From IMG/VR virus record IMGVR_UViG_3300032316_000809, positions 1-57,981 of that record: a stretch of DNA of 57,981 bases; one strand, written 5' to 3'. This document shows positions 15,825 to 49,100 of the stretch, piece by piece; position 1 is the stretch's first letter; every line of letters begins with the position of its first letter. Under the pieces are notes generated by a model. The model was not told the origin of the DNA, ran no database searches, and saw nothing but the letters and a program-made list of their open reading frames with translations. This DNA comes from a virus. A program made the translations under genes and the position numbers.

Positions 15825-16204
15825 TACATGTACCAGTAAGTGTTGGGGAATTAATTGATAAATTATCAATCCTACACGTTAAACAAACAAAAATAACTAA
15901 CGAAGAAAAATTAGAATATGTTAATAAAGAATTTGAACTTCTTTATAACATGTCATCAGGATATTTTGAAAAACCTGAAATTGAATCTTTATACCATCAA
16001 TTAGTTGAAACCAACGGTAAACTTTGGGATATTGAAGATAAATTAAGAGTTTTAGAATTTGAAAAAAAATGGGAGGGTGAGTTTGTAGAGTTGGCTAGAA
16101 AAGTTTATTTCACAAATGACACAAGATTCGAATTAAAAAACGAAATAAATAAATTCACTGACTCTGAAATTAGAGAAGTGAAAGAATATGTAAAATATAA
16201 ATAA
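15821..16204 (+). CDS. DUF6165-like small protein of glycan clusters
   Basis: 127 residues from the ATG at 15821, which overlaps the previous stop (ATGA); the frame remains open further upstream but overlaps that gene wholly. The beginning VPVSVGELIDKLSILHVKQTKI and the two long helices that follow match the small all-helical DUF6165 type that I recall next to glycosyltransferases in bacteria and phages. There are no catalytic motifs. A regulatory or scaffolding role in the glycan pathway is only inferred from context. Confidence 0.65.
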   Translation: MIHVPVSVGELIDKLSILHVKQTKITNEEKLEYVNKEFELLYNMSSGYFEKPEIESLYHQLVETNGKLWDIEDKLRVLEFEKKWEGEFVELARKVYFTNDTRFELKNEINKFTDSEIREVKEYVKYK

Positions 16205-16205
16205 T

Positions 16206-16877
16206 ATGATAGAGAATATAAAAGAAGCGTTAAAAAATTATTTTGAAGACGAAAGTTTGATTAACCCTGAAGGAACTCCTGGTTCTGAAACAGGTTACCC
16301 TGAGAGGGACGTAAATTGGATGAAAGAAAATTTAATTCCAAAAATTGAAAACTTAATAGATAAAAATGTTAATAAGAATTGTTTAGACGTTGGATGTGCT
16401 CAAGGATATTTCACCAGAGTTTTAAGTGAAACTTTTGATAAGACTTATGGAATCGATTTATCTAATAATAGAATTAATTATGCAAAACAATATGAGACTG
16501 AAAATTTAAAATTTATTCAATCGGACTTAACTGAAAGTTTTGCAAATAAGTTTCCAATCAAATTTGATTTCATGTTTACAAATGCAGTCCTTCCTCACAT
16601 CCCTTTAGAATTCAAATCAGATGTTTTTAAAAATTTAGCGGAAGTTGCAAATCCAGGATGCATCTTTGTAATGTATGACGGAATGTTAAATGACAATAAT
16701 AAACACAAACATGACGGAAATGAACAAGCGAATTTTGAAAATTGGAGTGGTAAAGAAATAATTAGAGTTGTTTTTATAAGTGAAAATTGGATTCGTGAAA
16801 ATGCAACAGATTGGGAAATTGTTCAAATTACTAACGTTGGTCACGCGACTGAAGAAATAATTTTAAAAAGAAAATAA
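16206..16877 (+). CDS. Class I SAM-dependent methyltransferase
   Basis: 223 residues. Motif I is CLDVGCAQGYFTRVL (59-73) and is followed by TYGIDLSNNRINYAK, which holds the acidic ribose-binding residue. Motif IV is DFMFTNAVLPHIP and motif V is NLAEVANPGCIFVMYDGML. The overall length fits a small-molecule or sugar methyltransferase. It lies between a DUF6165-like gene and an FkbM-type methyltransferase, so methylation of the phage glycan is the simplest role. Confidence 0.82.
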   Translation: MIENIKEALKNYFEDESLINPEGTPGSETGYPERDVNWMKENLIPKIENLIDKNVNKNCLDVGCAQGYFTRVLSETFDKTYGIDLSNNRINYAKQYETENLKFIQSDLTESFANKFPIKFDFMFTNAVLPHIPLEFKSDVFKNLAEVANPGCIFVMYDGMLNDNNKHKHDGNEQANFENWSGKEIIRVVFISENWIRENATDWEIVQITNVGHATEEIILKRK

Positions 16878-16878
16878 C

Positions 16879-17532
16879 ATGAGTTTATTTGGAGCGTTTT
16901 GGGATAAAGACCCCAATCCAGTTGGAACTGAAAATTTTGGAAACAATAAAGGGTTGTTCCATAATTTAGATTGGACACCTAAAGGTGTTTTACATATTGG
17001 TGCGTGGGACGCTTGGGAGGCAAAACAATACGCACATTATTGCGGAGATAATTCTATTTTTTTGGAAGCGAACCCAAATTCATACCAAAGATTTAAAAGT
17101 GAGATTGAACAGTTTGACCAAAAAATATACAACTTAGCTGCTTGGAATGTGGACGACTTGGACATGAATCTATACTGTCCACCACATAATCAAGACTCAA
17201 GTTCTTTAATCGAACAGAGAGGGGATGTGATTAAAACCAGAACAATTACAATCAAAACTTTATTTGAAAGAGAAGGTCTTGAGTTTGGCAACTACGATTT
17301 ATTAAATATTGATACTGAAGGTGCTGAATTACAAGTACTTGAAGGTATTGGTGAAGGAATTAAAAATTTCACTTATATCATTATTGAAGTGTCGGATTTA
17401 GGTTCGGACTTTGATAAACAAGTAAATGAGTTTATCTCATCTAAAGGATTTGTCCACGTTAAAGATAGTACAAGTCATATGAGCTCTGTTACTGGTAAGA
17501 TGTTCTGTGATAAATTGTATAAAAAAATATAA
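16879..17532 (+). CDS. FkbM-type methyltransferase
   Basis: 217 residues. The SAM site is GVLHIGAWDAWEAKQYA (about 36-52) with acidic loop FLEANPNSYQRF. The family hallmark LLNIDTEGAELQVLEGI lies at about 140-156. FkbM-family enzymes O-methylate sugars and polyketides and are common in polysaccharide loci. Its TAA overlaps the next ATG (TAATG). Together with the gene before it, the phage encodes two separate methylation steps. Confidence 0.87.
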   Translation: MSLFGAFWDKDPNPVGTENFGNNKGLFHNLDWTPKGVLHIGAWDAWEAKQYAHYCGDNSIFLEANPNSYQRFKSEIEQFDQKIYNLAAWNVDDLDMNLYCPPHNQDSSSLIEQRGDVIKTRTITIKTLFEREGLEFGNYDLLNIDTEGAELQVLEGIGEGIKNFTYIIIEVSDLGSDFDKQVNEFISSKGFVHVKDSTSHMSSVTGKMFCDKLYKKI

Positions 17533-18362
17533 TGAAGAAGTCAGTAATCTTAACATCAAGAAACGATAACTATGGAGGTAATCTACACAAGAGAACAACC
17601 ATGGCATTAAAATCGTTAATTGAGAATCACGATGAGGTTATATTTGTTGATTGGAAAACAGTTAATGGTGAAGGAGTAATTTCTAACATCAAACATGATT
17701 TACCAAAAACAGGTAAATTAAAATATATACAGGTACCAAAAGAGTTTTTAAAAGAAAAATATCCTCACATTTCAGACTATACTATAATAGAATCTATCGG
17801 TAGAAATATCGGTATTAGACATGCAACAAATGATTATATAATATCAACCAACATTGATATTGTAACCACCCCTCTCGATGATTCAATCTTAAAAGAAAAC
17901 GTATTTTATACGGTACCAAGAAGAGATGTTGATGAATCCTTCCATTTGTCATTCAATGACTATGAAAGTTTATACAAGTCTTTATGGGATAATCGTGATG
18001 GTTACAGAGCCAAAGAAAGATTTGAAACGGATAATGATAAGTGGTCACTAATAAATTGTTGTGGCGATTACCAGATTGGACACAAAAATGTTTGGTATCA
18101 AATGAAAGGGTTTGAAGAATCTGTTTTATTTGGTTGTGGTATTGACACAAACGTAATGAAGAAAGCGTCCATGTATTCTAATATTCAAGTGTTAGACCAT
18201 TATGTTTTTCATTTGAATCACGGTAAAATTGGTAACAGAGATGAAGACGAATCTGTCCCGCCAATGTCCGACCAAAATGAAATCATACGAGATTTTATAG
18301 AAACAACCAATTCAGAGAATTGGGGTATGTATAACGAAGATTTACCAATAGAAATTATATGA
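17532..18362 (+). CDS. GT-A glycosyltransferase (GT2-like)
   Basis: 276 residues. The N-terminus SVILTSRNDNYGGNLHKRTTMALKSL leads to VIFVDWKTVNGEG. The metal motif region is ATNDYIISTNIDIVTTPLD (near residue 100, N-x-D in place of D-x-D). Near the end, DYQIGHKNVWYQMKGFEES and DHYVFHLNHGKIGNR give the catalytic and Mn-binding His region of this group. It probably transfers a sugar to a glycan or protein acceptor. Overlaps the acyltransferase gene by four bases. Confidence 0.75.
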   Translation: MKKSVILTSRNDNYGGNLHKRTTMALKSLIENHDEVIFVDWKTVNGEGVISNIKHDLPKTGKLKYIQVPKEFLKEKYPHISDYTIIESIGRNIGIRHATNDYIISTNIDIVTTPLDDSILKENVFYTVPRRDVDESFHLSFNDYESLYKSLWDNRDGYRAKERFETDNDKWSLINCCGDYQIGHKNVWYQMKGFEESVLFGCGIDTNVMKKASMYSNIQVLDHYVFHLNHGKIGNRDEDESVPPMSDQNEIIRDFIETTNSENWGMYNEDLPIEII

Positions 18363-18997
18363 GTGAACCAAAATCAATTTTAATTGTTGGAGGCGCAGCT
18401 GGTGCCAAAATTGCAACAAATATTTTTAAATTAACACATCCACATCACGTAATTTATTATGTTGAGTGTTTTGCTGATGAAATACAAATTAATAGATTAT
18501 ACTCCACAGTTGAAAAATCTTTAGAGTACATCAATAAGTCTAACGTAGATTATTTTATTGCAACAGGGGATAACCTTATGAGAAAAAAACATTACGACCA
18601 AATTAAGTCGTACACAAAGAAAGAACCGATAAACTGTATTCATCCGACTGCGGTTGTTGAATCCAAAAGATTTGGACATGGTAATTTGGTTTGTCCTAAC
18701 GCGGTTGTTCACATCGACTCTCATATTGGAGATTGTACGATTATTAATACGGGTTCTATTGTAGAACACGATTGCCACGTTGGGGATTATTCACAAATAT
18801 CACCAAATACAACTCTATGTGGTTATGTTCATGTTGGAGAAAATTGTTTTATTAGTGCAGGAAGTACTATAATTCCTAAAGTAAGTGTTGGAGACAACTC
18901 TATTGTTGCAGCAGGGTCTGTTGTTATTGACGATGTACCACCAAATGTAATGGTTGCAGGTATACCATCAAAAGTTAAAAAAGTTTATAAATTATGA
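18359..18997 (+). CDS. NeuD/PglD-like sugar O- or N-acyltransferase
   Basis: 212 residues. An N-terminal Rossmann-like part (SILIVGGAAGAKIATNIF) binds the sugar nucleotide in this family. From about residue 95 the hexapeptide left-handed beta-helix begins: INCIHPTAVVESKRFGHG, then VEHDCHVGDYSQISPN with catalytic-type His, and AGSTIIPKVSVGDNSIVAAG. It transfers an acetyl or similar group from acyl-CoA. The adjacent aminotransferase (overlap four bases) suggests N-acylation of an amino sugar made by that enzyme. Confidence 0.87.
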   Translation: MSEPKSILIVGGAAGAKIATNIFKLTHPHHVIYYVECFADEIQINRLYSTVEKSLEYINKSNVDYFIATGDNLMRKKHYDQIKSYTKKEPINCIHPTAVVESKRFGHGNLVCPNAVVHIDSHIGDCTIINTGSIVEHDCHVGDYSQISPNTTLCGYVHVGENCFISAGSTIIPKVSVGDNSIVAAGSVVIDDVPPNVMVAGIPSKVKKVYKL

Positions 18998-20157
18998 AAA
19001 AATTAAGCATTCCAATTTTTAGACTGAAATTTGATTTCAAATCTAAATTTAAGTTTTTAAAAGGTTCATGGGACATTTTGTCTTCAGATAGACCATTAGG
19101 AGAATCAAAATACGTAAAAGAATTTGAAGATAAATTTGCAAAAATGGGTGATGCAAAATATGCGTTGGCTTGTTCAAATGGTACTACAGCGATTGAGTTG
19201 GCATTAAAATCCCTTGGAGTATATAACAAAAAAGTTTTAATACCTTCTAACACATTCTTTGCAACCAGTGTTGCGGTTACAAACGCTGGAGGTATTATTG
19301 AATTATTAGATATGGAACCACAATCGTTTTCAATTTGTTTGAAAGATTTAGAATCTAAAATAACTTCAGAAACAGGTGCGGTTATTATTGTTCATATTGG
19401 TGGTATCATTTCACACGATATTATTAAGATTGTTGAATTATGTAAAAAACATAATGTTCCATTAGTTGAAGACGCCGCTCATGCGCATTTTTCATTAAAA
19501 GGAACACATAGAGCTGGGGTTATTGGTGATATAGGTACTTTTTCATTTTTTCCAACAAAAGTTATGACAACAGGTGAAGGAGGTATGATTACCACAAATA
19601 ACAAAGAACTTTATGATAAAATGAAATCATTAAAGAACTTTGGTAGACATCTTGAAGATGGTGGTGTTATTGTTAGTCCAACAGGAAACAACTTTAAAAT
19701 CAATGAATTCACGGGATTATTAGGTAGTATTGAATGTGATAGGGTTTATTCGAGGATTCAAACAAGAACTGAGCTATTAGAAAGATACCGAAAAAATTTA
19801 GAAAAAACCAAATACAAAGTTATTAAACAAAAAGGTAACGGTGTTTGTGCAAACTATAAAGCAATTGTTATCACCCCTATGGACGGAGCTTGGTTAAAAA
19901 AATATTGTAAAGAAAATGGTATTTCATTAACGGGAGAAGTATATCGAATCCCTGTTCATCAACAACCTTTATATAAAGAACAATTTTCCTCTGTAAATTT
20001 GCCAAATACTGATTATTATTCTAAACATCACGTATGCCCTCCTCTATATCCTGAGTTATCAATAAAAGAGGTCGATTACATTTGTGATGTTTTAAAACAA
20101 GCTTTAATTGATTATGAAGAACAGAGTAGCAAAACTAACTCAGATAAGAAAGATTGA
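18994..20157 (+). CDS. DegT/DnrJ/EryC1/StrS-family PLP aminotransferase
   Basis: 387 residues. Substrate/PLP motifs: CSNGTTAIELALKSLGV (60-76), LIPSNTFFATSVAVTNAGG, VEDAAHAH with D160 pairing to the PLP ring nitrogen, and SFFPTKVMTTGEGGM with the Schiff-base lysine K189. GRHLEDGGV and NFKINEFTGLLG follow as expected. It transaminates a keto-sugar, or a keto-cyclitol, using glutamate or glutamine. Its last 44 bases overlap the MDR dehydrogenase gene and the NeuD-like gene overlaps its start, so the three probably act in one pathway. Confidence 0.88.
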   Translation: MKKLSIPIFRLKFDFKSKFKFLKGSWDILSSDRPLGESKYVKEFEDKFAKMGDAKYALACSNGTTAIELALKSLGVYNKKVLIPSNTFFATSVAVTNAGGIIELLDMEPQSFSICLKDLESKITSETGAVIIVHIGGIISHDIIKIVELCKKHNVPLVEDAAHAHFSLKGTHRAGVIGDIGTFSFFPTKVMTTGEGGMITTNNKELYDKMKSLKNFGRHLEDGGVIVSPTGNNFKINEFTGLLGSIECDRVYSRIQTRTELLERYRKNLEKTKYKVIKQKGNGVCANYKAIVITPMDGAWLKKYCKENGISLTGEVYRIPVHQQPLYKEQFSSVNLPNTDYYSKHHVCPPLYPELSIKEVDYICDVLKQALIDYEEQSSKTNSDKKD

Positions 20158-21142
20158 GATTTTTGAGGAAGAAATTCCAAAATTAAAAGAAGGTCAAATA
20201 CTTGTCGCAATGAAATCTGTTGGAATCTGTGGTTCCGACATGCATTACTTTAAAGAAGGAGGTTTAGGCTCCTTTAAAAATCCTCTCCCAATGTATATGG
20301 GGCACGAACCTGCAGGGGTCATAGTTGACGCCAACGGGTCTAAAAAATTCAAAGATGGTGATAGAGTCGCAGTTGAACCTGGAATGCCTTGTATCACATC
20401 TTATTGGTCTTTAAGAGGTAAACATAACTTATGTGATAAGGGAACTTTCATGGGAGCAAATTCTCAAGGAGCGTTTGCGGATTATGTTGTGGTTGAAGAA
20501 CTGCAATTGGCAAAGATACCCGACTCAATGTCATTCAACTTGGCGAGTTTACTTGAACCGCTTGGAGTTTGTCTTCACACCGCAAATTTAATTGAACCAA
20601 AATTTACCGAATCTGCAACCATTTTTGGAGCAGGTCCTATTGGTTTATGTATGTTTTCTATTTTAAAGAAAGCAGGCGTTAAAGATATTTTTATGATTGA
20701 TAAATTACCTTACAGAGCTAAGTTCGCTAAAGACTTTGGAGCAACCCAATCATTTTTACTTGCAGACGATTACGCAAAGAAAATTAAAGAATTAACAGGA
20801 GGTATGGGAACTACCATGGCGATTGACACAGGAGGTACGACAGAATCAATTGATGGTTGTATTAACGTAGCTGCGGTTAATGGTAAAGTTGCGTTAATTG
20901 GAATTCCTGAAGCGGATTTTGTAACATACAATCCTCACAGAATGAGAACCAAAGAATTAACAATTAAAAACGTAAGAAGGTCAAATCAAACTTTAGATGA
21001 CTGTGTTAAAAATTACACAGGAGATGACGATATCGAAGGAATTATTTCTCATGAATTTGATTTCAACGATATTCAACAAGCTTTTGATACTGTTGCCGAT
21101 TATAAAGACCAAATCTTAAAATGTATTATAAAAAATAATTAA
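20114..21142 (+). CDS. Zinc-dependent medium-chain dehydrogenase (sorbitol dehydrogenase-like)
   Basis: 342 residues from ATG at 20114 (a TTG two codons earlier is less likely). Catalytic zinc ligands are visible in VGICGSDMHYF (Cys) and MGHEPAGV (His, Glu), and LLEPLGVCLHTA completes the site. The NAD(P) fold is ATIFGAGPIGLCMF. The structural-zinc loop is degenerate: PCITSYWSLRGKHNLC keeps only the outer two cysteines of the usual four, as in animal sorbitol dehydrogenases that lack this zinc. It could oxidise a polyol, or reduce or oxidise a sugar intermediate, before or after the aminotransferase it overlaps. Confidence 0.87.
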   Translation: MKNRVAKLTQIRKIEIFEEEIPKLKEGQILVAMKSVGICGSDMHYFKEGGLGSFKNPLPMYMGHEPAGVIVDANGSKKFKDGDRVAVEPGMPCITSYWSLRGKHNLCDKGTFMGANSQGAFADYVVVEELQLAKIPDSMSFNLASLLEPLGVCLHTANLIEPKFTESATIFGAGPIGLCMFSILKKAGVKDIFMIDKLPYRAKFAKDFGATQSFLLADDYAKKIKELTGGMGTTMAIDTGGTTESIDGCINVAAVNGKVALIGIPEADFVTYNPHRMRTKELTIKNVRRSNQTLDDCVKNYTGDDDIEGIISHEFDFNDIQQAFDTVADYKDQILKCIIKNN

Positions 21143-21143
21143 T

Positions 21144-21752
21144 ATGAAATTAAATTTAGATTATACAGGTGATAGTAGATGGGAACAAATGTCCGACATA
21201 CATAAGACATCATTACCAATGCCTAACTTATTTGTTAGTTTACTTTACCAATACCAAGACAAAATCCCAAACTTAAACGAAATAAATTTTGCAATTGAAA
21301 CGGGAACTCATGACGCAAGAACTTCAATATTCTTGGCCGAACATTTTGATGTTACATTCACAGTAGAATTATTTCCTGACCGTAATCCTTATGATGGAAA
21401 AAGTTATAGAGAGTCATATCAAAAACTTTCTGAACAATACGGTAACCTTACTTTCTTGGAAGGTAATTCAGGAGATGTATTAAAATCTGTATTAGAAGAA
21501 TTACCTGATGAAAGATTCTTTATCCTATTGGACGCTCACAGTATGTTAGATGGCCCATTAAAAGAAGAATTAAGTGCTATTAAGGGAGCGAGTAACCGTA
21601 ACGACCACGTTATATTAATTGATGACTGTAGAGACTTGGGACAAGGTAATTTCCCAACACTACAAGAATTTAAAGACGCTCTTTATAGTATCAATCCAAA
21701 CTATACAATCATAAACACAGAACAAGGAAACCACATTTATTTAGTTTATTAA
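21144..21752 (+). CDS. Methyltransferase-like Rossmann protein
   Basis: 202 residues. FAIETGTHDARTSIFLAEHFDVTFTVEL (about 49-76) fits the SAM-binding loop and second strand of class I methyltransferases, with a T-G-T-x-D/x-A rather than the G-x-G-x-G pattern. FFILLDAHSMLDGPLKEEL (near 130) and HVILIDDCRDLGQGNFP (near 150) resemble the CmcI-like group, with Asp residues that may bind metal. It is a small protein without an obvious substrate domain, embedded in the glycan block; activity as a sugar methyltransferase is possible but not shown. Confidence 0.6.
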   Translation: MKLNLDYTGDSRWEQMSDIHKTSLPMPNLFVSLLYQYQDKIPNLNEINFAIETGTHDARTSIFLAEHFDVTFTVELFPDRNPYDGKSYRESYQKLSEQYGNLTFLEGNSGDVLKSVLEELPDERFFILLDAHSMLDGPLKEELSAIKGASNRNDHVILIDDCRDLGQGNFPTLQEFKDALYSINPNYTIINTEQGNHIYLVY

Positions 21753-21753
21753 T

Positions 21754-22689
21754 ATGAAAAAATATATAATTACAACTACGATTAACGAACCAACCGAAGC
21801 AACAATAAAATTTTGTGAGATTGCGGATAAAAAAGATTTTACATTTGTAATTGTTGGAGATACAAAAACTCCTCACCAATCATACGTTGATTTAACTGAA
21901 AAATATAACAACGTAATTTACCTTAACCCTGAAGCTCAAGACAGATTATATCCTGAGTTATCTGAGGTTATTGGATGGAAAACAATCCAAAGAAGAAATG
22001 TTGGATTAGTATACGCTTACCAAAGCGGCGCAGAAATTATTGCGACAGTTGATGATGATAACATTCCATATGATTCCTGGGGTGACAACATATTACTGGG
22101 TCAAGAGATTGAAGTTGATGAATATGAAAACACTTCATGCCCGTACTTCGATGCAATATCAACTACAGAACATAACGACTTGTGGCATAGAGGATTTCCA
22201 ATCGAATACCTTCAAGTAAAAAATAACATTGAATACAAAGGTAAGACAAAAATTACCCCAATGATTCAAGCAGAATTTTGGGACGGTGACCCAGACATCG
22301 ACGCAATTTGTCGATTAAGTAAAAAACCAATCGTAAAATTTAACTCATTTGAACCTTTCACAACAAAACAACTTACACCATTTAACTCGCAAAATACATT
22401 CATACACAGAGATGTTCTTAAACATTACTCTGTCTTTCCTTATACAGGTAGAATGGATGACATTTGGGGGTCCTATGTCTTACAACATTATTTTCCGAAC
22501 TCTGTTATATTTGCAAAAGCATCGGTATATCAAGCAAGAAACCCTCAAGACTTGGTTAGAAACTTGGAGAATGAAGTAATTGGATATAGAGGTACATTAA
22601 ACTTATTAGAAAATTTATCGGATTACAGAAATATCCTACCTGAAAAGGCAGTTGAGTATTTCGACATCTACCAAAAATATTTCAATTAA
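21754..22689 (+). CDS. Glycosyltransferase of the STELLO/DUF288 or RGP-like type
   Basis: 311 residues. YIITTTINEPTEATIKF (4-20), FVIVGDTKTP (31-40), a QDRLYPELSEVIGWKTIQRRNVGLVYAYQSGA stretch and the metal site TVDDDNIP (98-105) recall STELLO-type and reversibly glycosylated polypeptide-like proteins. In the C-terminal part, RMDDIWGSYVLQHYF is a good catalytic region. RGP relatives act as UDP-arabinopyranose mutases, so a mutase rather than a transferase is a live alternative. Its TAA overlaps the next ATG. Confidence 0.72.
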   Translation: MKKYIITTTINEPTEATIKFCEIADKKDFTFVIVGDTKTPHQSYVDLTEKYNNVIYLNPEAQDRLYPELSEVIGWKTIQRRNVGLVYAYQSGAEIIATVDDDNIPYDSWGDNILLGQEIEVDEYENTSCPYFDAISTTEHNDLWHRGFPIEYLQVKNNIEYKGKTKITPMIQAEFWDGDPDIDAICRLSKKPIVKFNSFEPFTTKQLTPFNSQNTFIHRDVLKHYSVFPYTGRMDDIWGSYVLQHYFPNSVIFAKASVYQARNPQDLVRNLENEVIGYRGTLNLLENLSDYRNILPEKAVEYFDIYQKYFN

Positions 22690-23591
22690 TGAAAACAGTT
22701 GCGGTTTGTATTTCAGGGCAGTTTAGAAGTTTTGACAAATGCCTCCCTTCAATTTTTAAGAATTTGATTTTAACTAACTCAAACTATGAGTTAAAGTTTT
22801 TCACATCCTTTGCAAAAGAAGAAGACAAACCTATTAACATACCAACAGAATTTTTTAAAATATCATCAGTAATTAAAATCGAGGAGGACTCAGTTCTCCC
22901 CGATTTAAGTTACCAAAAATCAAAATACAAATATCAAGATTATAATCTTGACACTGAAAACGACCCAAAGTTAATTTACTACCAATTAAAACAATTCCAA
23001 TCCGTATTCAATATGGTTAAGGAATATGAAAAAGATAATAACATGACATTTGATTATGTTATGAGGTTAAGACCTGATTTGGAGTTTAAAAGTATTTTTA
23101 ATTGGGAGTTACTTGAGGACTCTATAATAACCCCATCTGAGGACCACTTTCGAGGATATAATGATAGGTTTGCAATTGGACCTCGAAATTTAATGGAGGT
23201 ATATATGAGCCGATTAAATTATTGGATGTCTGAAAATGATGACATTAATTTTACAACTCAAAATGAAGTTAACTTAAAAAATCATTTAGATAACCACAAT
23301 ATATCGGTTAATAAAATACCAATTAGTTTACAGTACATCAGATATAACGATTTTTCAAAAACTAAATTAAAAATCACATCCATAACAACTGATGAAGCAC
23401 ATTTTAAAAATGTAACTAATGAGGACTTACCAATAAAACTTAGAATATGTTGTGGTAAAGGAGTTGTGTATTCTAATAAACTTAATTTACCACCTAATTT
23501 AGGTTGGTATGTTTCAAGCCCAAATAAATGTGATAATAAGAAAGTTATTTTTCAAGGAAATGACTTATACTTAGAATATAAAATGAATTAA
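22689..23591 (+). CDS. Putative glycosyltransferase (GT-A-like, ISGQFR type)
   Basis: 300 residues. The opening AVCISGQFRSFDKCLPSIFKN, then DYVMRLRPDLEF (about residues 119-130) and YNDRFAIGPRNLMEVY (about 155-170), are typical of a group of uncharacterised transferase-like proteins in capsule loci. The RPDL aspartate corresponds to the metal-binding position. It has an unusually Lys- and Asn-rich composition. The end is followed by a nine-base gap before the epimerase gene. Confidence 0.62.
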   Translation: MKTVAVCISGQFRSFDKCLPSIFKNLILTNSNYELKFFTSFAKEEDKPINIPTEFFKISSVIKIEEDSVLPDLSYQKSKYKYQDYNLDTENDPKLIYYQLKQFQSVFNMVKEYEKDNNMTFDYVMRLRPDLEFKSIFNWELLEDSIITPSEDHFRGYNDRFAIGPRNLMEVYMSRLNYWMSENDDINFTTQNEVNLKNHLDNHNISVNKIPISLQYIRYNDFSKTKLKITSITTDEAHFKNVTNEDLPIKLRICCGKGVVYSNKLNLPPNLGWYVSSPNKCDNKKVIFQGNDLYLEYKMN

Positions 23592-23600
23592 AATTAAACA

Positions 23601-24695
23601 ATGAAAAAAATAGTAGTATTAGGTGGAGGAGGTTTCATAGGTGGACACCTTGCCAAAAGATTAAAAGAAGAAGGAAATCATGTACGAGTATGTGATATCA
23701 AGAAACATGAATACTTCTTTCAAGACGAGTTCTGTCATGAATTTATTTTAGGAGACCTAACAGACCCTAAAGTTGTAGAACTTGTTATTGAAGAAGGAGT
23801 TGATGAAGTTTACCAACTTGCTGCCGATATGGGTGGAGCATTGTACATTTTCACAGGTGAGAACGATGCTAATGTTATGTATAACTCAGCAACTATAAAC
23901 CTTAACGTTGTTCACGAATGTGTTAAGAAGAAAGTTAAGAAAGTATTCTATTCATCATCAGCATGTATGTATCCTGAACACAATCAATTAGACCCTGAAA
24001 ATCCAAACTGTGAAGAGTCGTCAGCATACCCTGCTAACCCTGATTCTGAATACGGATGGGAAAAATTATTTTCAGAAAGATTGTACTTAGCGTTCAACAG
24101 AAATTATGGTTTAGATGTTAGAGTCGCAAGATTCCACAATATTTTTGGGCCACAAGGTACTTGGACAGGTGGTAGAGAAAAATCACCAGCAGCAATGTGT
24201 AGAAAAGCCGCTGAAGCTAAAGACGGAGACGTTATTGAAGTTTGGGGTAGCGGAATGCAAACTCGTTCATTCTTATACGTTGACGAATGTGTTGAAGCGG
24301 TATTGAGATTAATGGAGAGTGACTTTGTTGGTCCTGTTAATATTGGTAGTGAAGAAATGGTTACAATTAATCAATTGGCGGGAATGGCAATCGCAATCTC
24401 AGATAAAGATATAGAAATCAAAAATATCGAAGGTCAAAAATTTATTGATAAATATGGTTTCAAATGCCCATTAGGTGTTCAAGGAAGAAATTCAGATAAC
24501 AAACTTTATAGAGAAAAAGTTGGTTGGGAAGTTAGTGAACCTCTATCTATTGGGTTAAAAAAGACGTATAATTGGATTAAGTCACAAGTTGACGAGAAAG
24601 AAAAAAATACTCCATGGATTTACGAAAGTCCTGACAATGGTAAAACAGTCTACAGAAGAGAACCACAAAGTTCCGATAGACATAAAATTAAATAA
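23601..24695 (+). CDS. GDP-mannose 3,5-epimerase-like SDR enzyme
   Basis: 364 residues, extended short-chain dehydrogenase fold: GGGGFIGGHLAKRL (8-21). The catalytic residues of plant GDP-mannose 3,5-epimerase as I remember them (Arabidopsis C145, Y174, K178, K217) fit here as C122 in SSSACMYPE, Y151 and K155 in YGWEKL, and K194 in GGREKSPAA. The intervals (29, 4, 39) are identical. RFHNIFGPQGTWTGG and QTRSFLYVDECVEAVLRL also match that family closely. Expected reaction: GDP-D-mannose to GDP-L-galactose (and GDP-L-gulose). This is more specific than generic epimerase. It is preceded by A-rich AATTAAACA with no Shine-Dalgarno. Confidence 0.85.
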   Translation: MKKIVVLGGGGFIGGHLAKRLKEEGNHVRVCDIKKHEYFFQDEFCHEFILGDLTDPKVVELVIEEGVDEVYQLAADMGGALYIFTGENDANVMYNSATINLNVVHECVKKKVKKVFYSSSACMYPEHNQLDPENPNCEESSAYPANPDSEYGWEKLFSERLYLAFNRNYGLDVRVARFHNIFGPQGTWTGGREKSPAAMCRKAAEAKDGDVIEVWGSGMQTRSFLYVDECVEAVLRLMESDFVGPVNIGSEEMVTINQLAGMAIAISDKDIEIKNIEGQKFIDKYGFKCPLGVQGRNSDNKLYREKVGWEVSEPLSIGLKKTYNWIKSQVDEKEKNTPWIYESPDNGKTVYRREPQSSDRHKIK

Positions 24696-39182: not shown

Positions 39183-40976
39183 TTATCTTAATTCTCTCAA
39201 GTCAAATGTTCTTACACCATCAACTGTGATTCTACCGTAGAAACGGTTGTTCACCATTTTCTTAGCGTATCTAGTCATGATACCTTTGATTGGAGTGAAG
39301 TTGAATGGATTGTACATTGTTGGAGTTAATTGTAGAGGTACGTACGGTGCGTAGATGTAACCTGTGTCTAACAAAGATGTTCCTTTGTGACCCATTAACA
39401 CTTGGTTAGCTGGGAAGTAAGGGTCTCTGTACACTTGGTAACGACCTGCTAAAGTACCAACTCTTTCAATACCCATGTTGTACTGGTCTTGCTCAGGAGC
39501 TGCGTTTGATACGTGGAAATATTCTAAATCATCAAAGATTGCAGAAATTTCAGAAGAAACAACAATCCAGTTAGCTCCACCTCTTAATGTAGATTTGTGG
39601 ATTTGAGCAGAAATTTGGTTAATCGCTGTGATTAACGTTTGGTTCCAGTCTTTTTGAGTGTAAGGTACTGCACTACCGCCCAGTCTCTTCCATCCATTGT
39701 AATCCCAACGTAAGTTCCATGCTGCACCTTTACGTAAATCTCTTAAGATTTCACGGTCGATTTCAGCCGCAACTTGCTCAGATAATAAAGCTGTTAATTC
39801 AGCTTCAGCATCGATGTTGTGGAAAGCCGCAACGTCTTGTGCCATTTCTGGAGACCATTGTGCTCTTAATTTTCTTTCAGTTACAGAAACTGTTACAGAC
39901 ATAAGGTCAAAAGAAACCTCACCAATTTTATCTTCAAATTCTAAGTTCTTATAGATTCTATAAGTTGCCCTGAATGCTTGAGAGTTAGATTCGATTGTTG
40001 ACGCAAATGTTGAACCTGTGTAACCGTCCATTGAACCACCACAAGTGATACATACTGGTACTTGTAAATCAACTTCTAAGTAGATTTTTCCTTCAGCATC
40101 ACATACGTTGTCGTATTGACCACCGTCAGTTTTACTGTTAGGGAATACCAACGTATCGTTGTTGTTACCGTACTGTACAATACCTTTACCATATCTTTGA
40201 GTTACAACTCTGAATAAATAAGGGTTAGTTGTGTTAGCAGAAGTTGTTGTGTTTCCAGAAGCACCATAGATAGTCAAATCAGATAAGAAAGCCTCATTAT
40301 CCATTGGTTGACCATCAGGACCGATTAATTTACCTGCTCCCGCAGTTGCAAAACCTGACATAACTATTAATACTTTTCTGTAATCAGAAAGAGTATATGC
40401 AGAAGGAACTAATTGGTCAGCTAACCATGAAACTGTTGTTACGTTTGCAGTGATAGCTGAATATTGCCCTTTAGAATAGTCAAATAAACCTGGTGGGTCT
40501 AAAGCTGGTTCGTTACCTTCGTAGAATCTATCGTAAAGGTCTTTAGTGTTGTTGTAGTCATAACCACTGTTCGGAGTTTGACCCGCAGCTTGGTTTGGAG
40601 AACCGTAAGGTGCGTAGTGCTCAGAAGTACCTGGTTGGTAAGCCTGAATGTTAGGTACGAAGTAGAATAATTTACCGATTGGTAAGTTCATAGCTTGTAC
40701 TGAAACGATGTCGTTCGCTAATAATTTAGAGAATACACGTCTAACAATAGGGAAAACCACTGTTTCAAATGCTCCTGTATCAGAAGTAGATGATGCTTCG
40801 TTAATTAAATACGATGCTTGGTTTTCATATAATTGTGCAACGTTTTCTCTCATGTGACCTTTAAGACCCTCTAAGAATCCTAATTTGTCCCATTTGTTGA
40901 TTGTGTCTTCTTTAATAACTTTAAGGTGTTTTAACCCGATGTTACCAACAAGACCTGATTCTAATAATGCTCCCAT
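39183..40976 (-). CDS. Major capsid protein (T4 gp23-like)
   Basis: 597 residues, HK97-fold family of T4-like phages. The N-terminal region (GLKGHMRENVAQLYENQASY) ends in LINE/ASSTSD at E60, which fits prohead-protease cleavage, as gp23 is cleaved after residue 65. FETVVFPIVRRVFSKLLAND, VSVQAMNLPIGKLFYFVPN, VTVSVTERKLRAQWSPEMAQ and AEIDREILRDLRKGA are family landmarks. A central Gly/Asn/Thr-rich segment (about 230-320) contains two cysteines. It follows the scaffold gene in the usual T4-like order. Confidence 0.93.
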   Translation of the reverse strand: MGALLESGLVGNIGLKHLKVIKEDTINKWDKLGFLEGLKGHMRENVAQLYENQASYLINEASSTSDTGAFETVVFPIVRRVFSKLLANDIVSVQAMNLPIGKLFYFVPNIQAYQPGTSEHYAPYGSPNQAAGQTPNSGYDYNNTKDLYDRFYEGNEPALDPPGLFDYSKGQYSAITANVTTVSWLADQLVPSAYTLSDYRKVLIVMSGFATAGAGKLIGPDGQPMDNEAFLSDLTIYGASGNTTTSANTTNPYLFRVVTQRYGKGIVQYGNNNDTLVFPNSKTDGGQYDNVCDAEGKIYLEVDLQVPVCITCGGSMDGYTGSTFASTIESNSQAFRATYRIYKNLEFEDKIGEVSFDLMSVTVSVTERKLRAQWSPEMAQDVAAFHNIDAEAELTALLSEQVAAEIDREILRDLRKGAAWNLRWDYNGWKRLGGSAVPYTQKDWNQTLITAINQISAQIHKSTLRGGANWIVVSSEISAIFDDLEYFHVSNAAPEQDQYNMGIERVGTLAGRYQVYRDPYFPANQVLMGHKGTSLLDTGYIYAPYVPLQLTPTMYNPFNFTPIKGIMTRYAKKMVNNRFYGRITVDGVRTFDLRELR

Positions 40977-43262: not shown

Positions 43263-43979
43263 TTATTTTCCTAAATAATCGTTTAATTTTTTCATTAAGT
43301 CAACCGACTTCTCAACATATCCATTAGTTTGGTTGTGTTTTTTTTCTTCTTCTAAGTTTTCCTCATATTTTGTTCTATCTTCAGGGTTTGAAAATAAATA
43401 AGCCCCAGGTGTTGATGGTGATGATACTAAGTCAAAACAAATCAATTCAAAGTCATCTTGTACTTCATTTCTTTCACCAACTTTTTTAAGTGAACCAACC
43501 CCTCTTGAAGAAACCCCCATAGTAACCCCTTGTCTCATTAAGTTTGCCGCTTGGTCTCCTTTAGTAGATACAATACCTCTTTCGTGAAATCCTGGTGAAG
43601 TTAATAATTTTAACTTACCCATTAAGATATTTCCTTCCCACCAAATTTCTGTAATTAAATGGGCAACTCTATCTAAGTCAATTAAAGAAGATTCAGGGTG
43701 ATTAAGCTCTGAAGTTGACAATCCTTTATCAATTGCCTTTTTATAATTTTCGGCTTCTCTTTTAAGAATTCTTTCAGGATAAGTTCTACCGTTTCTATTT
43801 GGGGTGTCGTATTTTTGTAAAACAGCATAAAATTCAAATGGATTTCTATAGTCCATATCTTTAGCTTCTCTCAACATTTTTTCATTACGAGAATCTTTAG
43901 GTGATACCCAACCCGCGTCAGCCTCGACTAAGATACCGTGACCTAATTCGCTTGCCTCTAATATTCTTAAATTTTTCAT
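43263..43979 (-). CDS. Prohead core protease (T4 gp21-like, S78-type)
   Basis: 238 residues. DTPNRNGRTYPERIL (58-72), ELNHPES with catalytic H94, TMGVSSRGVGS with Ser157/158 and FELICFDLVSSPSTPGA with D183 form the serine-protease signature of the herpesvirus-assemblin-like clan. It processes scaffold and capsid proteins inside the prohead at (I/L)-x-E sites. It carries a late motif and is cotranscribed with the DUF4494-like gene. The C-terminus is a charged helix. Confidence 0.88.
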   Translation of the reverse strand: MKNLRILEASELGHGILVEADAGWVSPKDSRNEKMLREAKDMDYRNPFEFYAVLQKYDTPNRNGRTYPERILKREAENYKKAIDKGLSTSELNHPESSLIDLDRVAHLITEIWWEGNILMGKLKLLTSPGFHERGIVSTKGDQAANLMRQGVTMGVSSRGVGSLKKVGERNEVQDDFELICFDLVSSPSTPGAYLFSNPEDRTKYEENLEEEKKHNQTNGYVEKSVDLMKKLNDYLGK

Positions 43980-44015: not shown

Positions 44016-44456
44016 TTATTGGTCATCTGTCTTTTTTGAGGTTGAAAATTCGAAGTATTTGTTTTGTTGAATGTTATTTCTGAATATAGATTTGACTATA
44101 GTTTTAATGGAATCTTTGATTTCCGCGGACTTAAAATCCATTTCAGAGTTGGTGTATAAATTAATTTCTAAGTTAAAAAAAGATTTCTTACCGTGAGAAA
44201 TTCCACTCGTTCGTAGGTCTAAATCTACGATACTTTTTTCCTGAAATAATTTTTGGTTTATTGATTCGAATACCGAATGTTTAATTTCTCTACCTAAGTT
44301 AGAGACAACTCTATTCCAATTATCGTATTCTTGTTTTGGGGTCACCCATGATTGTATGTTTATGTAGACTGATTTTAGGTTTTTTGAATCGACAGTTCCG
44401 TAGACTGACTTAATTGGATTGTATAAATTTAACTTTACACTTTTTCCTTTTTTCAT
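44016..44456 (-). CDS. Putative virion/assembly protein, unknown
   Basis: 146 residues with a basic N-terminus (KKGKSVKLNLYNPIKSVYG) and alternating strand/helix pattern (VYINIQSWVTPKQEYDNWNR, FFNLEINLYTNSEMDF). No family or catalytic motif is recognised. It lies between the protease and bS21 genes, divergent from the latter, with no late motif in coding orientation directly upstream. A capsid assembly role is only a guess from position. Confidence 0.55.
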   Translation of the reverse strand: MKKGKSVKLNLYNPIKSVYGTVDSKNLKSVYINIQSWVTPKQEYDNWNRVVSNLGREIKHSVFESINQKLFQEKSIVDLDLRTSGISHGKKSFFNLEINLYTNSEMDFKSAEIKDSIKTIVKSIFRNNIQQNKYFEFSTSKKTDDQ

Positions 44457-44501
44457 TAATGTTCATGATTATGTATGTTTATTTTCTATAAAAGAATAGA
44501 G

Positions 44502-44509
44502 TATTTATA
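44502..44509 (+). promoter_or_regulatory. Late-type promoter motif for bS21
   Basis: TATTTATA on the plus strand, 29 bases before the ATG at 44539. This is one of the few plus-strand copies within the minus-strand late region. Confidence 0.55.
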
Positions 44510-44538
44510 CTTAATAGTCAAAAAATTTTTAAACCATT

Positions 44539-44730
44539 ATGATAATCATAAACATTAAGAGCGGGGACAATATAGAGAGAGCCCTAAAAACATTAAAATC
44601 TAAAGTAATTAAGACTAAACAAAATCAAAAATTAAACGAGAAAAAACAATATACAAAAAAATCTGTACTCAAAAGAACACAGATTTTAAAAGCTAAGTAT
44701 ATTCAGAAAAAGAAAGACCTATTAGATTGA
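44539..44730 (+). CDS. rpsU: Ribosomal protein bS21 homologue (Bacteroidetes type)
   Basis: 63 residues. IINIKSGDNIERALKTLKSK is the S21 signature (x-V-x-x-x-E-x-I-(E/D)-x-A-L-(R/K)-x-(F/L)-K). Next comes KKQYTKKSVLKRTQILKAKY, as in Bacteroidetes S21 (Y-T-(K/R)-x-S-x-x-(R/K)-R). A tyrosine is at position 54, which I recall as the residue by which Flavobacterium bS21 helps mask the anti-Shine-Dalgarno of 16S rRNA. It lies alone on the plus strand among minus-strand late genes and its stop overlaps the neighbour by nine bases. It probably enters host ribosomes during late infection. Confidence 0.85.
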   Translation: MIIINIKSGDNIERALKTLKSKVIKTKQNQKLNEKKQYTKKSVLKRTQILKAKYIQKKKDLLD

Positions 44731-45420
44731 TTCCTCAAGATTTTTTAATCTTAAAAAATTCATTTGGTCAAATTTTTCATCTTTTAATTGGTTGATAGTT
44801 TCAGAAATTCTTGTTTTAATATCAGATTCCTTCTCATTTTCTAATATTGTTTGAAGTTTAGTGATAGCACTTTCACGAATAGTCTCAAATTTAGTTTCAA
44901 GAGTTTTCGTATCTTCAGACACAATTTGAATAAATTCTTTTTTAGAATTTTCATCTAAAGTATCAAGGTAATTTCTCAAAGTTTGGTTTGCAATATTCAC
45001 CATAGATTTAATAGGAATATTGATAGATTCTTTAACTGTTTCAGTTTTTAAAGTAAGTATTGAAATGATATTTTTCTTAGCATTTATTCTTTCCTTTAAA
45101 TCTGTTTTTTGAGTGTAAACCAATGTATCGATATCGGTATAACTATTTTTAACTGATTCAGAAATTGTTTTTGGTAATTTAATGGTTGGCAAAACTCTTT
45201 GTAATAACGATATCCCTTCTTCTAAAAACTCTTTCGCATCATGTTCATTTAACCCTTGAGGTTTACTCAATTGGTCATATAAAGCATACGCTTTTGACAT
45301 AGATTTATTACTCAACACGTTGTGTTTGAATTCTCTCAATGTCTTCTTGAAGTCCTTTTCATCTTTGTAGGATTCTAGTAGATTGTTCTCAATTAGGGAT
45401 TTAATGTTACCAAAGGTCAT
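44722..45420 (-). CDS. Putative assembly protein with leader motif
   Basis: 232 residues from ATG at 45420; a TTG five codons earlier overlaps the late-motif leader and is less likely. The protein is helical and charged (FGNIKSLIENNLLESYKDE at the start, then KTIVKS-like and KLQTILENEKESDIKTR helices). N-LLE fits a prohead-protease site. It sits directly downstream of portal, at the position of T4 core proteins gp67/gp68. A prohead core component is therefore a reasonable guess. Confidence 0.6.
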   Translation of the reverse strand: MTFGNIKSLIENNLLESYKDEKDFKKTLREFKHNVLSNKSMSKAYALYDQLSKPQGLNEHDAKEFLEEGISLLQRVLPTIKLPKTISESVKNSYTDIDTLVYTQKTDLKERINAKKNIISILTLKTETVKESINIPIKSMVNIANQTLRNYLDTLDENSKKEFIQIVSEDTKTLETKFETIRESAITKLQTILENEKESDIKTRISETINQLKDEKFDQMNFLRLKNLEESI

Positions 45421-45434
45421 TTTGCTCGTTTTCA

Positions 45435-45442
45435 AATAAATA
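45435..45442 (-). promoter_or_regulatory. Late-type promoter motif for 45420
   Basis: TATTTATT, 14 bases before the ATG. It overlaps the 3' end of the portal gene. Confidence 0.5.
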
Positions 45443-47302
45443 TTACGTATTTAATAACTTATCCAATTCTTTTGAAATTTCTCCTAAAGATTGTTGTGCC
45501 TGACCCAAATTTATCATTTGAGCTCCCTCGATTAGGTTATTTTCAAGTAAAATATTCATGTCTTTTTTCTTAGACTCAGGAGCTAATTCTGGTTCACCTG
45601 TTGGTGGTGGTGGAGCCTCTCCTGCTGGTGGTGCTTCAGCCCCTAAGTCAGGCGCTGGTTCAGCTCCTCCTCCAAATGATGGTGGTGCTCCTAACTCTTC
45701 AGTTCCTCCTGGTGTGGTTGCGGCCCCTGCTGCAGGTGTTGCGCCTGTAGCACTTCCGTATAATTTGTCTATGTTATCAAATAATCCTGTTTTAGTAATA
45801 ACTGTTGCAGTTGCTTTAAGCTCTTCACCAACAGCTCTTTCAACTCTTTGTTGTTGTAAATCTAAACGAACTTCTTCGTCAGACCATCCAAAGATATGTT
45901 TCTTAGCCCATGTAGATGATGTTGCTTGAATACCATTTCCTGGGTCAGATACTAAATCTTTATACAATAACACTTTTTCTTTCCAAACATCAATCTTCAA
46001 TAAATCTGCTTGAGTTGATGGGTTTGTAAGACCTATAGTAAAGTTTGAAAGTTCGTCTTCAAATCCTAATAAGAATAGGTGAACAATCGCAACTTTATTT
46101 AACTCAGCCAACATACTCTTTTGAATTCTGTTGATTGTACGAGCAAATCTAATGTCTTGTAATGCCAAATTCTTACCATCACCAACAACTTCTTCAAATC
46201 CTAAGAATGCCTTAGGTACACGAAGTGCTGTTAATAATTTCTTTTGGATATATTCGATATCCGCAATCTCCGATAAGTTTGTTGCTCCAGGTAATGTTGT
46301 AATTGGGTCTGGCGCTGCAGGGTCTCTAACAGGGATAAAGTAATCTTGGTCAACCGCCATTTGGTTAAACCTCATATCTACGTTACCTGTCTTATTATCT
46401 ACAATTTGTTCTCTTTTGAATTTGTTAGCCACACGTTGTACATATGCCTCAACATCATCATCGTTCATATTACCTACGAAAACTTTAAACATCCTTCTTT
46501 CAGGTGCTCTTGATGTACGATAAATTAACATCGCATCTTCTGATAGTAATAATTGTTTCCAAATTCTTCTTGCTTTTTCTAACATAGAAGTACCATAAGG
46601 AAGTTTTCTATCGTCACCTAATAATCTAAAGTGAGCAATCTCCCATGATTGGAATTCCATGTTTTTATTCTTCCAAGTAAAATGAAGTGCTTTTTTGTCC
46701 TTATCTAATTCTTTTGTAATGTCTGTTGAAATTTTTCCACTCGCACCTACCTCATGTCTTTCAATTTCAATTGTTGGTAATTGTTGTACACCAACCACTC
46801 CCTTCTCAGGGTCTAATTTTAAGTAAACAAAGTTATCACCGTACTTACAAGTGTTTCTTGTCCACATTGGTAAGTTGGTGTTAATGTCTAAGTTGTTGTT
46901 AAATAAATCGGCTAATACACCTTTGATTCTTTTTGATTCAGAATATATTTGTAAAATAAATCCATCTTCATTAGTTGTTGTTGATTCCTCAGCGTAGATA
47001 TCTAACGCTGCTGAAATCTCAGGAGTATACTCCATTGACTCATAGTCATACTGAGCAGATAACCTTGATGGTTCATAATAAATCGCTTGTGAGTAAAGAT
47101 TGTTTTCAACCTTAGCCCATTGATTTGTTAAATAAAAAGTTTGTTGCGCCTGTAGTTTCTCTTTCTCGTACTCTTCTCTACTTTTGGTACGCAAAAGTTC
47201 CTTCTTATCAAACTTGAAAGTTGGATAATCCTGTTGTAAGAGTGAGTTCGGTCCAAATGTTTGCGACAGTCTTTGCCAAACCGTCATATTCTGTTCTGCC
47301 AT
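45443..47302 (-). CDS. Portal protein (T4 gp20-like)
   Basis: 619 residues. VENNLYSQAIYYEPSRLSAQ (about 60-80), DYESMEYTPEISAALDIYAEES, MWTRNTCKYGDNFVYLKLD and FRLLGDDRKLPYGTSMLEKARRIWKQL are gp20 landmarks. The clip and stem region follows, with KKLLTALRVPKAFLGFEE. The C-terminal 120 residues are Gly/Ala/Pro-rich with low complexity (GAAPAAGAATTPGG-type), longer than in T4. It forms the dodecameric vertex for DNA entry and nucleates prohead assembly. Its own late motif lies 28 bases upstream. Confidence 0.9.
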   Translation of the reverse strand: MAEQNMTVWQRLSQTFGPNSLLQQDYPTFKFDKKELLRTKSREEYEKEKLQAQQTFYLTNQWAKVENNLYSQAIYYEPSRLSAQYDYESMEYTPEISAALDIYAEESTTTNEDGFILQIYSESKRIKGVLADLFNNNLDINTNLPMWTRNTCKYGDNFVYLKLDPEKGVVGVQQLPTIEIERHEVGASGKISTDITKELDKDKKALHFTWKNKNMEFQSWEIAHFRLLGDDRKLPYGTSMLEKARRIWKQLLLSEDAMLIYRTSRAPERRMFKVFVGNMNDDDVEAYVQRVANKFKREQIVDNKTGNVDMRFNQMAVDQDYFIPVRDPAAPDPITTLPGATNLSEIADIEYIQKKLLTALRVPKAFLGFEEVVGDGKNLALQDIRFARTINRIQKSMLAELNKVAIVHLFLLGFEDELSNFTIGLTNPSTQADLLKIDVWKEKVLLYKDLVSDPGNGIQATSSTWAKKHIFGWSDEEVRLDLQQQRVERAVGEELKATATVITKTGLFDNIDKLYGSATGATPAAGAATTPGGTEELGAPPSFGGGAEPAPDLGAEAPPAGEAPPPPTGEPELAPESKKKDMNILLENNLIEGAQMINLGQAQQSLGEISKELDKLLNT

Positions 47303-47342: not shown

Positions 47343-49100
47343 TTACGCACCAAATAACCACCCATATTTTTGGTAATCGGCTCGGGTCGGACCTTGATTT
47401 ATGGGGTTCTGTCTACCCATTTGTGGAACCATTGGGTTGAAATAATCCGAAGTATTTTTATTCTCACTAATTGCTGTAGACCAAGAATTTAACATCGCTT
47501 TTGTATGGTTCACAACTTTCTCTAATGATTGAAAAGATTTCTCCGCAACATATATTGCCATAGAAATACTCATGATACAGTCATCGTGATGATTTTTTTG
47601 ATGGTCAGGTCTACCGTTAATGTAAACAAACGTATTCATCTCGTTATAAAGTCTACTTGAATAAATTCTAAACTTATGTCTCATACATTCTTCAAACGAT
47701 GCAATAATTTGAACCCTTTTACTGTTAAAGTTAATACCTGGTATCTTCTCATTCATCTTAGGGTCAAACTTCCATTTGTTTGTGATATCAACGTTATCTA
47801 CATACATTCCTGCTTGATAACCCATCTCTTGCATTTTTCTAGCGGTTGCAACCCCCATACCTCCCGTTAAATCGACTACACAGTATGCATTGTACATTGT
47901 ACCCCATTTGTAGGCAATCTCCGCCAGGATGTCAGGAGGTACCTTACCGACGTATTCTAACACTTGTTCCCTTGTATCAAAATCAATAATTTGAACACAC
48001 GAGAAATCCTCGGAGTCTCCTCTTGATACGTCGACACCCATAACGTACTTATGTCCGTTAACAGGTTCTTTCCAAATCCAAAGTCCTCCACCCATCATTT
48101 TTGCAATTGGGTCTTTAACTTGGTTTTTAGATATGTCTAACATCATCTCAGAATCAAATACATTATCCCCTGAACCCAAGAAGTTACATTCCAACTCCTG
48201 AGCTACTTTACGTCTATCGTATTTTAATTTTTTAACCATCCCTTCGAACCAAGACGAACATGGTTTGTACCCTTGTTCAATATAATCTGTAACTACTGAG
48301 TGGTCTCTTTCATATGGATTTTCCATAGATAGGTCAACAACAACATCATCAATATTGTATTCTTCTCTATTCAAAAGGAAATGAACCAAATCATTGGTCT
48401 TAACCATATATAGGTCTTTTGTATATCGTGGGTCACGATGCCAAAACATTTCAGTGACCTTGAAATCGTTCATGCCTCTCAATGATTGGTCATAGATTTC
48501 ATAGTAAATTGCGTCGTATCCGTTTGGAGTTGAAACTACAATTACCTTACCCCCTGTAGATAGGGACGCCATACAGGCAGCCCAAAAATCTCCGTCAGCC
48601 TCTATATAGGCCGCCTCATCAAATATTAGGATGGTAGGAGTATAACCCCTCAGTGCATCTCGTGATGTTGCAACGGCTTTAACTTCACAACCATTTGTTA
48701 ATTTAAAATGTCTTTGAGCGTTTTTCTCTGCAGAAAAGGTAACGCCAACCCATGAAGGCCATTGTTCTGTAAATCCTCTAATTTTATTTGCCATCTCCAC
48801 CGCAGTGTCTAACTTGTTGGCAATAACTAATATTTTTTCAGGTTTAGTTTTTTTGGCAAAAACTATTCGTTTTGAGGCCCAAGCAGCGGTAACTGTTGAA
48901 ACCCCTGCCTGTCTGTATTTCAAGGCAACGTTTTCATTGTAGTTATCGTAATCTTCGATTAGCGTTACTTGGTCGGGGAATAAGTCTAACGGAACGTATT
49001 TGGATACGGTGTTATCGTAGGTCTGTAAATAAGTACGAAGTGCGTAAGGAGTATTCCTCATACACTTCGTTACTTCTATAATTAATTGTTCTCTATTCAC
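47343..49100 (-). CDS. Terminase large subunit (T4 gp17-like)
   Basis: 585 residues. Walker A is KYRQAGVST (61-69), the Q-motif-like region precedes it, and Walker B is ILIFDEAAYIEA (157-168). VSTPNGYDAIYYEI is the coupling motif. The nuclease half starts HKYVMGVDVSRGDSEDFSCV (near residue 350), with VVDLTGGMGVA and the later Asp/His region NHHDDCIMSIS giving the RNase H-like metal site. It cuts and pumps DNA into the prohead. The start is GTG at 49100, 10 bases after the upstream stop; the next ATG is 13 codons in. Confidence 0.92.
   Translation of the reverse strand: MNREQLIIEVTKCMRNTPYALRTYLQTYDNTVSKYVPLDLFPDQVTLIEDYDNYNENVALKYRQAGVSTVTAAWASKRIVFAKKTKPEKILVIANKLDTAVEMANKIRGFTEQWPSWVGVTFSAEKNAQRHFKLTNGCEVKAVATSRDALRGYTPTILIFDEAAYIEADGDFWAACMASLSTGGKVIVVSTPNGYDAIYYEIYDQSLRGMNDFKVTEMFWHRDPRYTKDLYMVKTNDLVHFLLNREEYNIDDVVVDLSMENPYERDHSVVTDYIEQGYKPCSSWFEGMVKKLKYDRRKVAQELECNFLGSGDNVFDSEMMLDISKNQVKDPIAKMMGGGLWIWKEPVNGHKYVMGVDVSRGDSEDFSCVQIIDFDTREQVLEYVGKVPPDILAEIAYKWGTMYNAYCVVDLTGGMGVATARKMQEMGYQAGMYVDNVDITNKWKFDPKMNEKIPGINFNSKRVQIIASFEECMRHKFRIYSSRLYNEMNTFVYINGRPDHQKNHHDDCIMSISMAIYVAEKSFQSLEKVVNHTKAMLNSWSTAISENKNTSDYFNPMVPQMGRQNPINQGPTRADYQKYGWLFGA

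Follow-up and report, generated by a model that had tools for sequence, protein, structure and literature searches.

Why would a phage carry its own copy of bS21 in Bacteroidetes? Nowhere has a hidden anti-Shine-Dalgarno (anti-SD) sequence been studied better than on the ribosomes of these bacteria, where bS21 is both the lid and the regulated product. The locus that raises this question lies in the virus record IMGVR_UViG_3300032316_000809, which was analysed over its full 57,981 bases (the window), and consists of a 63-codon open reading frame at 44539..44730 (+). A phage bS21 that keeps the lid, and whose gene is without the regulatory SD, is a clean tool for two questions: do phages use masked ribosomes, and do they seize the bS21 circuit?

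Judged by its sequence, this reading frame is a true bS21, in agreement with an earlier note that had matched it to the Bacteroidetes protein from the letters alone. Its translation (MIIINIKSGDNIERALKTLKSKVIKTKQNQKLNEKKQYTKKSVLKRTQILKAKYIQKKKDLLD) contains no internal stops over 63 residues, passes the gathering cut-off of Pfam Ribosomal_S21 (PF01165; 35.4 bits, cut-off 27) and is aligned by phmmer to Flavobacterium johnsoniae bS21 (7jil_z, 7JIL) over residues 1-62 without a gap (E=1.4e-11). The NCBIfam equivalog cut-off is missed by about 3 bits (26 versus 28.95), a narrow miss that marks the window protein as a divergent bS21. The predicted structure, for which 21 rows were used, consists of one helix at 12-38 and another at 41-62 (mean pLDDT 84.6). 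Searching folds with this model gave no significant E-value and modest Z scores (at most 4.8), the few matching PDB chains being ribosome chains with weak scores, as expected of a helix pair ordered on the ribosome. Selection across the phage gene is purifying (pN/pS 0.19), and in a maximum-likelihood tree, built on only 64 columns and with many forks lacking resolution, the phage proteins form a single clade (100/97) nested among Bacteroidia-type proteins.

Codon 54 (TAT, 44698..44700, +) encodes the tyrosine on which the masking argument turns. The earlier note had given this residue a part in hiding the 16S 3' end: the alignment check indeed sets Y54 on Y54 of the F. johnsoniae protein, and the role in masking is experimental, given that Y54 stacks on A1534 and that Y54A or loss of bS21 unmasks the anti-SD and raises rpsU translation (PMC9976891). 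Position 54 is Tyr in 69 and His in 11 of the 80 nearest viral-contig relatives; in 103 cellular bS21 sequences taken from 118 sampled genomes it is Tyr or His in 30, namely the Bacteroidia-type proteins (a label inferred from sequence), and Arg in the remaining 73. When 28 distinct phage proteins are compared with 62 host sequences position by position, Tyr54 is found in 26 and 60 of them, respectively. The presence of Tyr54 in the window protein is more than chance: all 80 phage relatives have Tyr or His there, and the gene has the low pN/pS given above. His54 occurs in two host sequences (L222, L224), whose leaders have a TGAGA alternative SD, and in the 11 phage loci (for example L046 and L063).

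The surroundings of Tyr54 are host-like as well. In the 28-versus-62 comparison, residues 42-56 are largely as in hosts (S42, R46 and A52 common to all, Q56 to nearly all), and the phage proteins have S42, R46, K51, A52, I55 and Q56 in common with them. The segment of codons 18-33 (44590..44637, +) is phage-specific: at ten positions the overlap with host residues is below 5%, most of these ten being invariant among the 28 phage proteins, and residues 17-32 are the most constrained part of the phage protein (pN/pS 0.063; 0.021 in hosts). Constraint in phages and hosts alike, to differing sequences, is the pattern that functional divergence leaves. The residues named as divergent by Chen et al., R21, F23, 'Asp25' (residue 24 by 7jil_z numbering) and T28, are located by them where mRNA would bind (Chen et al., 2022; PMC9723584).

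Two readings meet at this point. The phage protein may simply be a supply that offsets a shortage as host rpsU expression drops, working like host bS21 and differing from it by neutral drift after capture; this agrees with the host-like Tyr54 end and with the tendency of phages towards exchangeable ribosomal proteins, of which bS21 is the commonest (PMC6375957, PMC9976891), but drift would not give a segment that is consistently non-host and strongly conserved among phages, and we hold this account to be doubtful. Alternatively, as Chen et al. proposed, segment 18-33 could act near the mRNA site to make specialised ribosomes that prefer late phage messages over host ones. The fixed, highly constrained non-host segment, the KVIKTKQ-type motif that related phage bS21s have in common and the predicted proximity to mRNA (PMC9723584) all speak for this proposal, which we nevertheless regard as possible at best, for a reason that comes from the leaders (see below). 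The earlier note had left open whether the phage favours its own messages or keeps ribosomes in the masked state. The host-like character of the entire end with Tyr54 favours the second option; the first is conceivable through segment 18-33, and that this segment biases initiation towards phage messages is a guess.

The leader, too, sets the phage gene apart from the host gene. The 29 nucleotides ahead of the start codon (44510..44538, +) have no extended SD, and their longest complementarity to the 16S tail is 3 nt, a maximum on which pairing of the leader with the tail was rejected. SD is likewise absent from 80/80 bS21 leaders of the phage relatives, where complementarity reaches 4 nt at most (11 with GGAG). 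In contrast, a strong SD precedes rpsU in all 80 Flavobacteriaceae-type host loci fetched, either as an exact match of at least 7 nt around GGAGGTG (66/80) or as the GAAAGGGGGTG variant (14/80); a broader Bacteroidia-type set of 26 comprises 18 genes with SD, two with the TGAGA alternative, which would suit hosts having a UCUCA anti-SD, and six with neither. An extended SD precedes rpsU in F. johnsoniae and many of its relatives; bS21 autoregulation works there through the exposure of the anti-SD on ribosomes that have no bS21 (PMC9976891). Given an SD in the host gene and none in the phage gene, we infer that phage bS21 is probably outside the host feedback loop, its missing SD freeing it from autoregulation.

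This contrast needs to be read against the general style of the leaders. The description of phage genes in the earlier note, SD-less with A-rich leaders, holds for the window as a whole: an SD core 4-mer occurs at -20..-4 in 3 of 54 genes (5.8 expected from random in-gene positions, sd 2.3), and A makes up a fraction of 0.50 at positions -30..-1, compared with 0.38 (sd 0.012) in in-gene sequence. However, presumed hosts have the same style (PMC6847099), so that absence of an SD from phage bS21 need not be a special adaptation and leaders do not set phage messages apart; the special point is that the host copy of bS21 has an SD. It is also the difficulty for specialised ribosomes, which would find no clear feature by which to separate phage from host messages. 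Among about two dozen distinct, more distant viral-contig bS21s, only the type of LR756501, a 735-kb phage, has a real SD; another contig copy (L313), host-like and with an alternative SD, is probably host DNA. In LR756501 (L163, 8001-8201) and in L277 the host-like AAAGGAGG precedes the start codon, unlike in all others of the group. Separately, some Bacteroidia-type genomes (L267, L235; G096, G111) have, besides an SD-bearing copy, a second chromosomal bS21 that is without SD and adjoins a sigma-70-type gene; the neighbour gene in L274 has a Pfam sigma-70 match.

The position of the gene is conserved as well. It lies between two conserved hypothetical genes on the - strand, a divergent one at 44016..44456 and a convergent one at 44722..45435 that overlaps the bS21 stop; they are found in 79/80 and 80/80 related loci, respectively, and the prohead (head maturation) protease in 76/80, counts in which some loci end too soon; in every case these genes and bS21 are on opposite strands. 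In the window this protease (43263..43979, -; phrog_207, 4e-43), the major head protein (MCP; 39183..40976, -; phrog_138, 4e-66), the portal protein (45443..47302, -; phrog_213, 5e-63) and the large terminase (TerL; 47343..49100, -; phrog_2, 2e-38) make up a head and packaging cluster. One could imagine from this place that the protein is no longer ribosomal: a basic, RNA-binding remnant put to a different use, for example in packaging or as a virion component, in line with the missed NCBIfam cut-off and with the possible packaging of bS21 into virions raised by Chen et al. (PMC9723584). This we consider highly improbable, since the match is gapless over the full length and the ribosome-binding end is host-like with Tyr54 retained.

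The best named cultured relatives of the window TerL include Flavobacterium phage 'immuto', a distant kin at 28% identity. Megablast of the right part of the window against named phages gave no match, tRNA genes are absent from the window and neither a spacer nor another host link was found for this phage; a Bacteroidetes host would fit the bS21 type, the SD-less A-rich leaders and the distant TerL kinship to immuto. Other genes of the window encode PhoH, dUTPase, FkbM and other methyltransferases, a DegT aminotransferase, NAD synthase and many sugar enzymes. A long + strand run at 9199-24695, with sugar-nucleotide, glycosyltransferase (families 2, 10 and 11), methyltransferase and aminotransferase genes and the NAD synthase, looks like a set for surface-polysaccharide remodelling.

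How the gene is transcribed can be partly read from its flanks. A promoter-like element, TATTTATA (44502..44509, +), ends 29 nt ahead of the bS21 start codon and belongs to an enriched motif: TATTTAT stands upstream of 13/58 genes in the window (0.84 expected) and of 25/69 genes in a 317-kb relative (1.4 expected), and, among 22 distinct bS21 leaders of more distant phages, 10 have it no more than 60 nt ahead of the gene, versus 2% of background 60-mers. TATTTAT is a likely phage promoter element. It ends 4-5 nt before ATG in 15/44 cases, so that some messages could be near-leaderless if the motif is -10-like. Further upstream examples are seen at 3883, 28930, 36304 (-) and 54566 (-) in the window, and also in G001 (L270-L273). 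On the other strand, a consensus scan found a sigma-70-like candidate promoter for the divergent gene, TTGACT-17-TATTCT (44493..44521, -), whose -35 is the conserved GTCAAAA block; the match is within chance expectation for the region, and both boxes are conserved in relatives. We rejected the conserved TCAAAA-TTTTT block as a regulatory element of bS21, the simpler account being the -35 of the divergent gene (TTGAC) with TATTCT 17 nt on. Also rejected was GTCAAAA...AGATATTT as a general phage promoter: it occurs once per contig in four of the eight contigs searched and is absent from the window.

The bS21 coding sequence itself contains a predicted intrinsic terminator for minus-strand transcripts (44658..44687, -; one found versus 0.1 in shuffles). 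Of the synonymous recodings of the window gene, 99.9% give a weaker terminator, and the same comparison yields 0.05 or below in 13 of 15 tested lineages, while the stem varies from ATCTGT/ACAGAT to TCGGTTCT/AGAACCGA with pairing preserved. Such a terminator would stop transcripts arriving from the TerL-portal side. It also calls for some care with expression data: bS21 is expressed late in the phages of Chen et al., whose methods do not state strand-specific RNA mapping (PMC9723584), so that the opposite strand could account for some of the signal they ascribe to bS21. Unstranded RNA-seq would assign the terminated transcript to bS21. This is a caution and not a refutation.

Late expression bears on a harsher role, in which phage bS21, once in ribosomes, poisons or slows host translation. 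Escherichia coli ribosomes with pelagiphage bS21 make about 5% of the normal protein in vitro (PMC6375957), but there the protein of a SAR11 phage sits in E. coli ribosomes, and a poison made late, alongside structural genes (PMC9723584), would hurt the phage's own late proteins. Shut-off of this kind seems improbable to us, although the inhibition also counts against a purely helpful role.

On balance, we think it rather probable that a late-made phage bS21 replaces or tops up the host protein with masking kept and with its gene outside the host feedback loop, a reading with which the rivals partly overlap. A functional phage bS21 would take the place of bS21 in 30S subunits of a Bacteroidetes host, probably late in infection; pelagiphage bS21 does enter E. 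coli ribosomes (PMC6375957). Because its C-terminal half and Tyr54 are host-like, ribosomes equipped with the phage protein should go on holding the 16S 3' tail within the bS18/bS6 pocket and remain SD-blind, which would suit the SD-less, A-rich phage messages. The bS21 message, having no SD, should itself be translatable by ordinary masked ribosomes and would not need the minority of ribosomes without bS21 by which host rpsU is read; phage bS21 would thereby stand outside the host loop, and vacant 30S subunits filled with it should repress host rpsU as well. Homology, Tyr54, purifying selection, the host-like C-terminal half, nesting in the tree and the conserved place in the head/packaging cluster support this reading, together with the SD in 80/80 fetched host rpsU and 20/26 of the broader set versus 0/80 phage leaders. 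The SD kept in the sister LR756501-type phage bS21 and the missed NCBIfam equivalog cut-off count against it, and the six of 26 Bacteroidia-type rpsU genes without SD mean that an SD-based loop may be missing from the actual host. More speculatively, and in our view rather unlikely in full, the phage would have captured a Bacteroidia bS21, dropped the SD and kept Tyr54 so as to drive the host circuit from outside: filling bS21-less ribosomes, switching off host rpsU along with the rest of SD-dependent initiation, and keeping every ribosome locked, masked and blind to SD, with a segment peculiar to the phage at the mRNA channel.

Similar proteins are known from several systems. Phage bS21 resembles the F. 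johnsoniae protein (McNutt et al., 2023; PMC9976891) in Tyr54 and in its C-terminal half, which contacts the 16S 3' tail; residues 18-33 differ and the strong SD of the autoregulated rpsU is missing from the phage gene. The bS21 of pelagiphage HTVC008M (Mizuno et al., 2019; PMC6375957) is likewise phage-encoded and enters E. coli ribosomes, but with a SAR11 host the Bacteroidia-type tail-masking context is not expected. Closer still, the bS21 of LR756501, an uncultured phage, is sister to the window clade in the tree (99/94) and also has Tyr54, and differs by the AAAGGAGG before its start codon. The closest parallel is the set of bS21-encoding Bacteroidetes phages described by Chen et al. (clades a-e; PMC9723584), from which we found no difference in kind: (i), the order of TerL, portal, prohead protease and MCP is the same, and bS21, flanked by two hypothetical genes, runs on the other strand; (ii), Tyr54 is found in 54 of their 61 phages, the others having a different aromatic residue, and divergence falls at residues 21-28; (iii), GC is low and PhoH and sugar genes are present. 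Chen et al. proposed that phage bS21 joins the ribosome with masking retained, as a ribosome takeover, and the main idea, a phage bS21 with Tyr54 and masking kept, is therefore already published (Chen et al., 2022; PMC9723584). The absent SD, the TATTTATA element and the in-gene terminator are not described in its main text; together with the fixed non-host segment 18-33 they are what our reading of the DNA would add, and of these the contrast between phage and host leaders is the sharp, testable one.
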